From an uncultured Reyranella sp. (GTDB lineage Bacteria; Pseudomonadota; Alphaproteobacteria; Reyranellales; Reyranellaceae), in NCBI RefSeq assembly GCF_945957355.1, contig NZ_CAMFKM010000020.1:1-64000 (forward strand): 64,000 nucleotides of DNA. The letters run 5' to 3'. The notes under the pieces are model-generated. The model saw nothing but the letters and a program-made list of their open reading frames with translations. It was not told where the DNA came from and made no database searches. Positions 3,330 to 9,151 of the stretch are shown in pieces. Position 1 is the stretch's first letter. Each line of letters opens with the position of its first letter. The translations under genes and the position numbers were made by a program.

Positions 3330-4328
3330 ATGACACCTGTTTCCCGCCGCGCCGTGCTGGCGTCCGGTAGCCTGGCCCTGCTGCCGACGCCGGCCTTCGC
3401 ACAATCCGGACTTCCGGATCGCGCCGTCCGCCTCTGGGTCGGCTTCGCCGCAGGCGGTGGTTCCGACGTCGTGGCACGCGCCATCACGCCCGGCATCCAG
3501 CAGCGCCTCGGCCGCCCCGTTACCGTCGAGAACCGCCCCGGCGCGGCCGGCGCCACGATGGGAGCGTCGCTGAAGAAAGCCGCACCCGATGGCACGACCA
3601 TCGGATTGCTGCCGAGTACGACCCTGATCGGCCAACTCACCTCGCCGGCGACCTTTCCATTCGATCCGCTGCACGATCTGGCGCCGCTCGGGATCGTCGG
3701 GACCTTCGAAACGGCATTCGTCGTTTCACCTTCGATCGGCGTCCGCACGCTCGCCGAGTATGTCCAATGGGTGAAGGACGGCCCGCCCGATCGCCGTCGG
3801 TTCGGCACCGCCGCGCCCCAGACCTTCTCACAGTATTTCGCGCAGCTGCTCGGCCGGCAGTATGACATCGCCCTCGTGCCCGCACCCTTCCGTGGCACAG
3901 GTCCCCTGTCGTCGGATCTCGGCCAAGGGCGCATCCCGGCAGGTTGCGGCGGCCTTGCCTCCTTCGTGCATCAGCATCGTGGCGGCAAGCTCCGGATCCT
4001 CGCCACGTCGGGCGCGGCTCGCAATCCGGTGCTTCCGGACGTGCCGACGGTGGTGGAACTGGGCTTCCCGGGACTGCAACTGATCGACTGGTACGCCTTT
4101 TTCGCGCCGGCCGGCCTGCCGTCGCCCCTCATCGCCCACTGGAACCGGGAATTGAGAATCGCCGTAGAGAGCCGCGATACGCAGGAACAACTCACGCAGT
4201 ACGGCGTCATCGTCGGCGTCACCAAACCCGACGAATGCACGGTGCGCCTCGCATCCGATTTTGTCCGCTGGCGGACGCTGCTTGACATGCCGGGCATCCG
4301 GACCGCCAATGGTGGAGGGCAGGAGTAA
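3330..4328 (+). CDS. Tripartite tricarboxylate transporter substrate-binding protein (TctC/Bug family)
   Basis: Signal peptide, then PDRAVRLWVGFAAGGGSDVVARAI and VENRPGAAGATMGA. Confidence 0.88.
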   Translation: MTPVSRRAVLASGSLALLPTPAFAQSGLPDRAVRLWVGFAAGGGSDVVARAITPGIQQRLGRPVTVENRPGAAGATMGASLKKAAPDGTTIGLLPSTTLIGQLTSPATFPFDPLHDLAPLGIVGTFETAFVVSPSIGVRTLAEYVQWVKDGPPDRRRFGTAAPQTFSQYFAQLLGRQYDIALVPAPFRGTGPLSSDLGQGRIPAGCGGLASFVHQHRGGKLRILATSGAARNPVLPDVPTVVELGFPGLQLIDWYAFFAPAGLPSPLIAHWNRELRIAVESRDTQEQLTQYGVIVGVTKPDECTVRLASDFVRWRTLLDMPGIRTANGGGQE

Positions 4329-4331
4329 GTC

Positions 4332-5084
4332 ATGACAGAGCCACTGAAGGTCTTCTGGCAGCCCGGTTGAACGAGCTGCCTGAGACTCAAAGAGTTTCTA
4401 TCGATCCGTGGGATCGACTTCGTCTCGGTGAATGTCCTCGAAGATCCGGCTGGCTTCGCCGAGCTGCAGGTGCTCGGCGCGCGTTCCGTGCCGGTCCTGT
4501 CGCGCGGCCGCCAGTTCATCTTCGGCCAGAGCACGCGTGAGATCGTTGCCTTCCTCGGTCTCCAGGAAAAATCGGGCCCCGAACTCTCGCCTGCCGAACT
4601 CTACGCGCGTCTCGACAGGTTTATGACCGCGGCCATCGGGCTGCTGCCGCTCATGCCGAACGAGAAGCTCCATATCCATGTACCGGGGCGGCCGCGCAGC
4701 TACCGCGCGCTCGCCTTCCATCTCTTTCGCGTGGTTTCGGCCTTCCTCGATGCCGAGCAGGGTAAGACCCTGGTTCAGGCGGCGTTCCGCGAAGAGCCGG
4801 CAGCCGATGCAGACATGGCGGCGGTGGCAGCCTACGGCGCCGCCGTGCAGGAGCGGTTTCGCAACTGGTGGGCCCACGGCGATACGAGCGCGGCGCGCAT
4901 GCTGCCGACCTACTACGGCGCGCAGAGCCTGCATGAATTGCTGGAACGCACCACGTGGCATTCCGGCCAGCATGTGCGGCAGTGGATGATGCTGCTGGAA
5001 CGGGAGGGCGTTACCCACGACAGGCCGCTCGGTGCCGCGGATTTCACCCGCCTGCCCATGCCTCAGAACGTCTGGGACGGGTAG
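4332..5084 (+). CDS. Putative selenoprotein: glutaredoxin-like domain (UxxC) fused to DinB-like domain; in-frame TGA at 4368-4370
   Basis: ATG 4332 lies 3 nt after the upstream stop with AGGAG RBS; frame reads MTEPLKVFWQPG[TGA]TSCLRLKEFLSIRGIDFVSVNVLEDPAGFAELQVLGARSVPVLSRGRQFIFG... to 5084 with no other stop; C-terminal ERTTWHSGQHVRQWMMLLE is DinB-like. ORF track call 4428..5084 starts after the redox motif. Confidence 0.7.
4382..4398 (+). promoter_or_regulatory. Hairpin A downstream of in-frame TGA (SECIS candidate)
   Basis: GAGACTC-AAA-GAGTTTC, 7 bp stem (one G-U), starting after an 11-nt spacer from the TGA. Confidence 0.4.
4401..4417 (+). promoter_or_regulatory. Hairpin B downstream of in-frame TGA (SECIS candidate)
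   Basis: TCGATCC-GTG-GGATCGA, perfect 7 bp stem with G-first apical loop; 37 nt between the TGA and the loop. Confidence 0.45.
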
Positions 5085-8155: not shown

Positions 8156-9151
8156 GTGACGATGAAGAAGATCGGCCGCCGCACATCGATTTTGATGACC
8201 GGCGCAGCACTTACCTCACCACTCGCGCCGAGCGTGCGCGCCCAGCAGCCCGGCCTGCCCGACAAGCCGCTGAAAATCCTGGTCGGCTTCCCCGCCGGTG
8301 GCGGCACCGACGTGATGGCGCGCCTGATCGCCGAGCCGCTGAAGCAGCGCACCGGCCGCAACGTCATCATCGACAACAAGGCCGGCGCCTCCGGCACCAT
8401 CGCCGTTGGCGACCTGAAGAACGCGCCGGCGGATGGCACGACCATCGCCTACGTACCCTCGGCGACCATCGTGCAGAAGCTCACCATGCCCGGTGTTCCA
8501 TTCGACCCGATGACGGACATCGCCCCGATCACGCTCGCCGGAACGGTACAGACCGCATTCTGCGTGTCGCCGACCATCGGCGTCGGAAACCTCAAGGAAT
8601 ACATCGAGTGGCTGAAGAAGAACCCGACCCGCGCCTCCTTCGGTACGACGGCGCTGGGTTCTTTCACGCACTTCTTCGGCGTCATGGCCGGCAAGGCGGT
8701 GGGAATTCCGCTCGAGCCGGTGCCGTATCGCGGCGCCGCACCGCTGGTCGCCGATCTGCAGGGTGGTCATATCGCCGCCGGCTGCGGCGGCATCACCGAC
8801 TTCCTGGAGCATCACCGCGCCGGCAAGGTGAAGGTGATCTTCACCTCGGGCGTGAAGCCCACCACTTCGGCACCCGAGATCCCGACCATCAGCCAGCTCG
8901 GCTACCCGCAGCTCTCGATCCTGGGCTGGTACGTGTTCTTTGCGCCACCCAGGACGCCGGCGCCGCTGATCGATGCCTGGGGCAAGGAGCTGAAAGCCGT
9001 GCTCGAGATCCCCGAGATCCAGAAGAAACTGGTCGAGCTGGGCCTCGACGTCGAAACCTCGACACCGGCCCAGTTCACCGAACGCATGTCGGCCGACCTC
9101 GCGCGCTGGAAGACGATCATCGATTCGATCGGCTATAAGCCGCAGGGTTGA
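8156..9151 (+). CDS. Tripartite tricarboxylate transporter substrate-binding protein (TctC/Bug family)
   Basis: PLKILVGFPAGGGTDVMARLIAEPL and IDNKAGASGTIAVGDLK; possible in-frame ATG at 8162. Confidence 0.9.
   Translation: MTMKKIGRRTSILMTGAALTSPLAPSVRAQQPGLPDKPLKILVGFPAGGGTDVMARLIAEPLKQRTGRNVIIDNKAGASGTIAVGDLKNAPADGTTIAYVPSATIVQKLTMPGVPFDPMTDIAPITLAGTVQTAFCVSPTIGVGNLKEYIEWLKKNPTRASFGTTALGSFTHFFGVMAGKAVGIPLEPVPYRGAAPLVADLQGGHIAAGCGGITDFLEHHRAGKVKVIFTSGVKPTTSAPEIPTISQLGYPQLSILGWYVFFAPPRTPAPLIDAWGKELKAVLEIPEIQKKLVELGLDVETSTPAQFTERMSADLARWKTIIDSIGYKPQG

Follow-up and report, generated by a model that had tools for sequence, protein, structure and literature searches.

Analysis of the window, the whole stretch of 64,000 nucleotides considered here, identified a single reading frame that runs from the ATG at 4332 to the stop codon at 5082-5084, with the TGA at 4368-4370 as its sole internal stop. 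When this TGA is read as selenocysteine (Sec, U), the frame codes for a protein of 250 residues, MTEPLKVFWQPG-U-TSC-LRLKEFL.... The stop codon of the preceding TctC gene is the TAA at 4326-4328. Standard ORF calling starts at the GTG at 4428, by which the active site is removed. The initial annotation had described the frame 4332-5084, with its AGGAG and broken only by the TGA, exactly as it is found in the sequence, and had also pointed out the truncation to GTG 4428; the called ORF, 4428-5084, contains the DinB part only. The features of the locus are listed below; homologues with TGA at codon 13 are referred to as U-forms and those with a Cys codon as Cys-forms.

4321-4325, plus strand: AGGAG ribosome-binding site, overlapping the 3' end of the upstream TctC gene (ORF 3330-4328) (sequence)
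4332-5084, plus strand: complete gene of a predicted glutaredoxin (Grx)-DinB fusion selenoprotein, 250 aa, with TGA codon 13 as Sec (frame, Pfam, order-wide conservation)
4347-4517, plus strand: Glutaredoxin domain PF00462, with invariant Pro54 at the cis-Pro position (Pfam, structure model)
4368-4370, plus strand: predicted Sec codon TGA (U13), position 1 of the UTSC active site (TGA in 67 U-forms, TGC/TGT in 43 Cys-forms)
4377-4379, plus strand: Cys16 (TGC), putative resolving Cys of UxxC (invariant)
4382-4398, plus strand: first hairpin 3' of the Sec codon, 7 bp, loop AAR (register shifts or lost in distant relatives)
4401-4417, plus strand: putative SECIS apical hairpin, stem YCGRYC/GRTYGR, loop CGUGN at 4407-4411 (67/67 U-forms, 0/43 Cys-forms; bSECIS model)
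4428-5084, plus strand: short ORF from GTG by standard ORF calling, DinB part only, 218 aa (ORF list)
4638-4982, plus strand: DinB_2 domain PF12867, four-helix bundle (Pfam, structure model)
4719-4721, plus strand: His130, first predicted metal ligand (invariant in U- and Cys-forms)
4959-4973, plus strand: His210-x3-His214, predicted metal ligands two and three (invariant)

Two TctC (Bug-type) receptor genes are located near the selenoprotein gene, at 3330-4328 and 8156-9151. The former ends 3 nt ahead of the start codon. In distant relatives the association with TctC genes is not conserved.

The proposed combination of a Grx and a DinB domain proved right by Pfam, by family-wide profile matches and by Foldseek. 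Pfam Glutaredoxin (PF00462) matched residues 6-62 (E=4.8e-9; 36.7 bits against a gathering cut-off of 22.9) and all 28 family members, and DinB_2 (PF12867) matched residues 103-217 (E=3.2e-5; 24.8 bits, exactly the cut-off) and 25/28 family members at E<=0.01. In the AlphaFold2 model (pLDDT 93, pTM 0.89) the N-terminal part matched glutaredoxins, including Clostridium oremlandii Grx1, and the C-terminal part matched the DinB/YfiT structures 6iz2, 2f22 and 1rxq. Foldseek matches of the whole length to glutathione S-transferases (GSTs) had low TM-scores, approximately 0.3, and serve as an analogy only; a viral fold search yielded matches to the glutaredoxin domain only, which were uninformative for this protein. 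The residues invariant across U- and Cys-forms are U/C13, C16, P54, H130, H210, H214, R120, R122, R206, Q213, R216 and Q217, so that the three His that characterize DinB proteins (H130, H210 and H214) are all present in the sequence.

A scan of GTDB genomes yielded 52 homologous loci, in 50 of which codon 13 could be read. TGA was found in 23 of these, all from Alphaproteobacteria as far as record titles tell, and TGC or TGT in the other 27, mostly from Burkholderiales; the case of relatives all carrying Cys, which the initial annotation had named as evidence against its reading, did not occur. Its placement of the TGA at the first position of a CxxC glutaredoxin site is borne out by 43 Cys-forms with TGC/TGT at this codon. 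The locus thus shows the hallmark of bacterial selenoproteins, an in-frame UGA at a redox position occupied by Cys in homologues.

Within the same order the gene with TGA was present in 68/76 genomes. Each full-length orthologue carried one TGA and no further stop, none carried Cys, and the TGA lay at codon 13 in all 30 loci examined; Cys copies within the order were paralogues only, with 38-45% identity (G109, G114). Of 385 genomes sampled from the class, 32 had a homologue: approximately 60% of these had the TGA form, with identities of 44-100%, and the remainder had Cys forms only. G428, which belongs to the genomes with the TGA form, held a Cys copy in addition. Among 67 U-form sequences from independent genomes examined directly, every one had a single TGA, at codon 13, and TAA or TAG never occurred there.

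The Cys forms are distant homologues of other groups, or paralogues. These unnamed Grx-DinB proteins of Burkholderiales, Rhizobium and others share the two domains and the invariant residues, at 31-47% identity, but, unlike the U-forms, they have TGC/TGT at codon 13 and lack the SECIS hairpin (43 examined). They are annotated as 'DinB family protein' or 'glutaredoxin domain-containing protein'.

The genome from which the window derives, that of a Reyranella relative, is 99.88% complete. A search for the Sec machinery, whose absence would have spoken against the proposed reading, found all four components: selA (565 bits) and selB (464 bits), both above curated cut-offs, selD (294 bits) and a tRNA-Sec (selC) with anticodon TCA. 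In addition, fdoG in this genome has a continuous frame only when its in-frame UGA (U202, ...ARIUHGP...) is read as Sec, and fdoG is located in one cluster with selA, selB and tRNA-Sec. Because selA, selB, tRNA-Sec and selD are present together with an fdoG that contains an in-frame UGA, the host cell very probably produces Sec for one or more classical enzymes. The cluster, on contig C17 (L070:12398-15502, minus strand, and neighbours), has the order fdoGHI-fdhE-selA-(Sel1-like)-selB-tRNA-Sec, with tRNA-Sec located after selB and not nested within it.

The presence of the U-form was found to be associated with selB. In the first set, selB was above cut-off in 23/23 U genomes versus 13/27 Cys genomes (Fisher p=2e-5); among genomes followed up from the class sample, the figures were 13/14 U versus 3/13 Cys-only genomes (Fisher p=3e-4). 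Within the same order selB was detected in 66 of the 68 gene-bearing genomes, the other two being 60% and 89% complete. The three genomes with the gene and no detected selB (G067, G083 and G136) are all 60-89% complete assemblies. One genome of the same genus (G093, 96% complete) lacked both selB and the Grx-DinB gene, as expected if Sec decoding is required for the gene.

The region immediately after the TGA was compared between the two forms. Over codons +1 to +16, the observed/expected ratio of codon identity was 1.27 in U-forms, a value reached by 0/5000 random 16-column sets, and 0.97 in Cys-forms. Judged by this comparison of sequences, the U-form DNA directly 3' of the TGA is conserved beyond the needs of the protein. 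Two hairpins are located there, at 4382-4398 and 4401-4417. The six pairs of the latter and the sequence CCGTG at positions 39-43 were found in 67/67 U-forms; in Cys-forms, CCGTG occurred in 0/43 and the six-pair stem in 0/43. Among 31 distinct U sequences, pair 38-46 was UA or CG and pair 34-50 was UA, UG or GC, always paired, the UA/CG and UA/GC exchanges being compensatory changes. U-forms also have Ser24 and Arg26, with other residues at these positions in the aligned Cys-forms, because the SECIS stretch of the RNA codes for S-V/I-R.

The published model of the bacterial SECIS has a loop of 3-9 nt with a G in the first two positions, mostly G[G|U], and a stem of 4-16 bp, located 16-37 nt from the UGA, with an energy of -7.5 kcal/mol or lower (PMC13188914). 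The hairpin 4401-4417 agrees with this bSECIS model on loop (C-GU-GN), stem (6-7 bp), spacing (36-37 nt from the UGA) and energy (-8.1 kcal/mol alone). The minimum-energy fold of the 63-nt stretch of the window was not more stable than those of shuffled sequences (z=-0.76), and the exact hairpin was within the minimum-energy fold of 20/31 distinct U-forms and missing in 11/31; for these two reasons the argument for a SECIS is comparative and not energetic. The loop sequence CGUG represents a strictly conserved alphaproteobacterial SECIS loop, usable for studying recognition by SelB.

The first hairpin, 4382-4398, is well kept in close relatives and varies in register farther away. It was ruled out as the SECIS core by its shifting or lost register in distant U-forms, in which the second hairpin is constant, and is probably accessory. 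If it stays folded, the effective distance from UGA to loop is approximately 20 nt, similar to that of fdoG.

When the whole genome was searched for further selenoprotein genes with the RNA model of this family, only the Grx-DinB gene was found (E=2e-21). A second match, at C2:317767 (E=0.56), was without an open frame through a TGA and was attributed to chance. Rfam SECIS_1 gave 0 matches across the genome and likewise 0 in control genomes, so that this test is uninformative, and Rfam models gave sub-threshold matches only over the Grx-DinB gene.

Other explanations of the in-frame TGA were weighed against these results. The initial annotation had named a sequencing error or a fresh TGC to TGA mutation as its main alternative, in which case the gene would in fact belong to the Cys forms or be a recent pseudogene. 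TGA does lie one base from TGC, the codon carried by some homologues, but it is shared by 67 sequences of independent assemblies, with protein identities as low as 44%, the frames on either side are intact and the hairpin is found in U-forms only. A sequencing error is untenable because the TGA recurs in many independent assemblies, and the same recurrence excludes this alternative as a whole, leaving it a negligible probability. Simple truncation of the gene was excluded as well. The UGA might instead be a true stop that closes a 12-codon leader, the DinB part alone being produced by re-initiation at GTG 4428 and the hairpins regulating translation. Both the ORF from this GTG and RNA structure 3' of the stop exist. 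We consider this very improbable: the flanking residues VFWQPG...SCL..KEFL do not vary between the U-forms and the Cys-forms, whose frame continues through the site, the upstream part of the gene is retained in all, Grx and DinB are fused in every Cys-form, and the U-form is linked to selB.

Readthrough of the UGA by near-cognate suppression, with insertion of Cys or Trp, has a still smaller chance of being correct. The Cys homologues show that Cys is functional at codon 13, and other organisms are known to insert Cys at a Sec codon occasionally; such suppression, however, would require neither SelB nor a SECIS-type hairpin, and both track the TGA. The Grx-DinB gene therefore in all likelihood encodes a selenoprotein, with UGA 4368-4370 decoded as Sec, a reading for which the support is computational. 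SelB and tRNA-Sec of the cell would decode this UGA, directed by the hairpin 4401-4417 inside the coding sequence. The selenoprotein originally proposed is strongly supported by the Sec machinery, the conserved TGA, the link to selB and the U-only hairpin; the SECIS and the wide distribution go beyond what was first proposed.

A tree of 59 members needed approximately four changes between U and C, its root not being fixed, and changes in both directions are possible. The first 50 loci supported a single U-form origin, but the wider set, with its approximately four Sec/Cys changes, did not. U and C copies occur together in three genomes: G428 (L121, L131), G109 (L138) and G114 (L139). Because these genomes hold both, the Sec and Cys forms are not simply interchangeable, and the co-occurrence of a Sec form with a distant Cys form within one genome suggests different roles. 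The family provides a natural series of Sec/Cys pairs, at times within one genome, for testing the contribution of selenium to an enzyme.

The product would consist of an N-terminal glutaredoxin-fold domain with the redox pair U13-T-S-C16 and a C-terminal DinB-fold bundle with His130, His210 and His214. Our best guess for its function is a selenol-dependent low-molecular-weight-thiol transferase/reductase. The DinB part probably binds a metal, which would position a low-molecular-weight thiol (here probably glutathione, the assumed partner) or a conjugate; the selenol of U13 would attack the resulting disulfide or S-conjugate, and Cys16 would resolve the selenenylsulfide. Such a selenol-dependent thiol transferase/reductase would have a two-domain layout reminiscent of GSTs. 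For thiol-disulfide or deglutathionylation chemistry the chances appear about even, and direct cooperation between the UxxC site and the DinB metal site is suggested only tentatively. Equally tentative is the fuller proposal of a selenium-dependent thiol transferase in which the Grx selenol and the DinB metal site act on one substrate, for example deglutathionylating conjugates from xenobiotic catabolism.

With the Sec reading kept, the protein could also be an ordinary dithiol redoxin or an Spx-like redox sensor that tethers a DinB bundle of structural role and carries out no transferase chemistry. The Grx part gave its best scores against YruB/NrdH-type redoxins, which rely on dithiol chemistry rather than on a glutathione site. 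This reading is nevertheless less likely than not: the three DinB His ligands and several Arg and Gln residues are invariant in U- and Cys-forms, which would be unexpected if the domain were purely structural. The genes upstream in the window, coding for a luciferase-like flavin monooxygenase, a glyoxalase-fold (VOC) protein and the TctC receptor, are compatible with a catabolic setting but are not evidence for one. No neighbour gene was conserved among relatives; contexts vary, and several resemble catabolic genes by eye. Among curated families, none that has an assigned reaction fits the Grx-DinB protein. If it does work as the selenium-dependent thiol transferase outlined above, no earlier selenoenzyme would precede it in the DinB S-transferase superfamily, and Alphaproteobacteria would have in it a common selenoprotein.

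The gene very probably represents a second selenoprotein, whose active site is dropped by gene callers; it is present in nearly all genomes of its order and has a scattered occurrence in the class. No DinB protein is listed in the 119-entry prokaryotic selenoprotein inventory of May 2026, and no Sec form of the DinB/YfiT-like superfamily is reported in the open-licence literature searched, where selenoprotein and DinB together returned only unrelated papers. No model of NCBIfam release 20, the curated selenoprotein models included, takes the protein above cut-off. An unpublished annotation of it may possibly exist.

Among the selenoprotein families already listed is UxxC Grx (PMC13188914). Sec-containing Grx1 of Clostridium oremlandii (7c10, 7c12; PF00462), the best PDB sequence match of the family profile, likewise combines the Grx fold with UxxC and a resolving Cys; it is a single-domain protein, whereas the protein described here is a DinB fusion from Alphaproteobacteria with its own SECIS hairpin. 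The UXX-star (NF041212, NF041211, NF047338) and HUGP/GUXX-star (NF045501) families are also Grx-like Sec proteins, one of them a fusion, but DinB is absent from their names and from the inventory, and scores together with names set them apart: the bits remained below the cut-offs for NF041212 (26.8/66), NF041211 (17.2/100), NF047338 (23.5/97) and NF045501 (11.4/325).

On the DinB side, the bacillithiol transferase BstA/YfiT and the mycothiol transferases share the four-helix DinB fold and the three-His metal site (PMC10950700). YfiT and BstA hold the metal by three His and conjugate low-molecular-weight thiols, and the known DinB/YfiT-like members named there are thiol S-transferases without a fused Grx (PMC10950700). 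UxxC glutaredoxins and fusion selenoproteins are known kinds; what is new is the DinB partner and the distribution.
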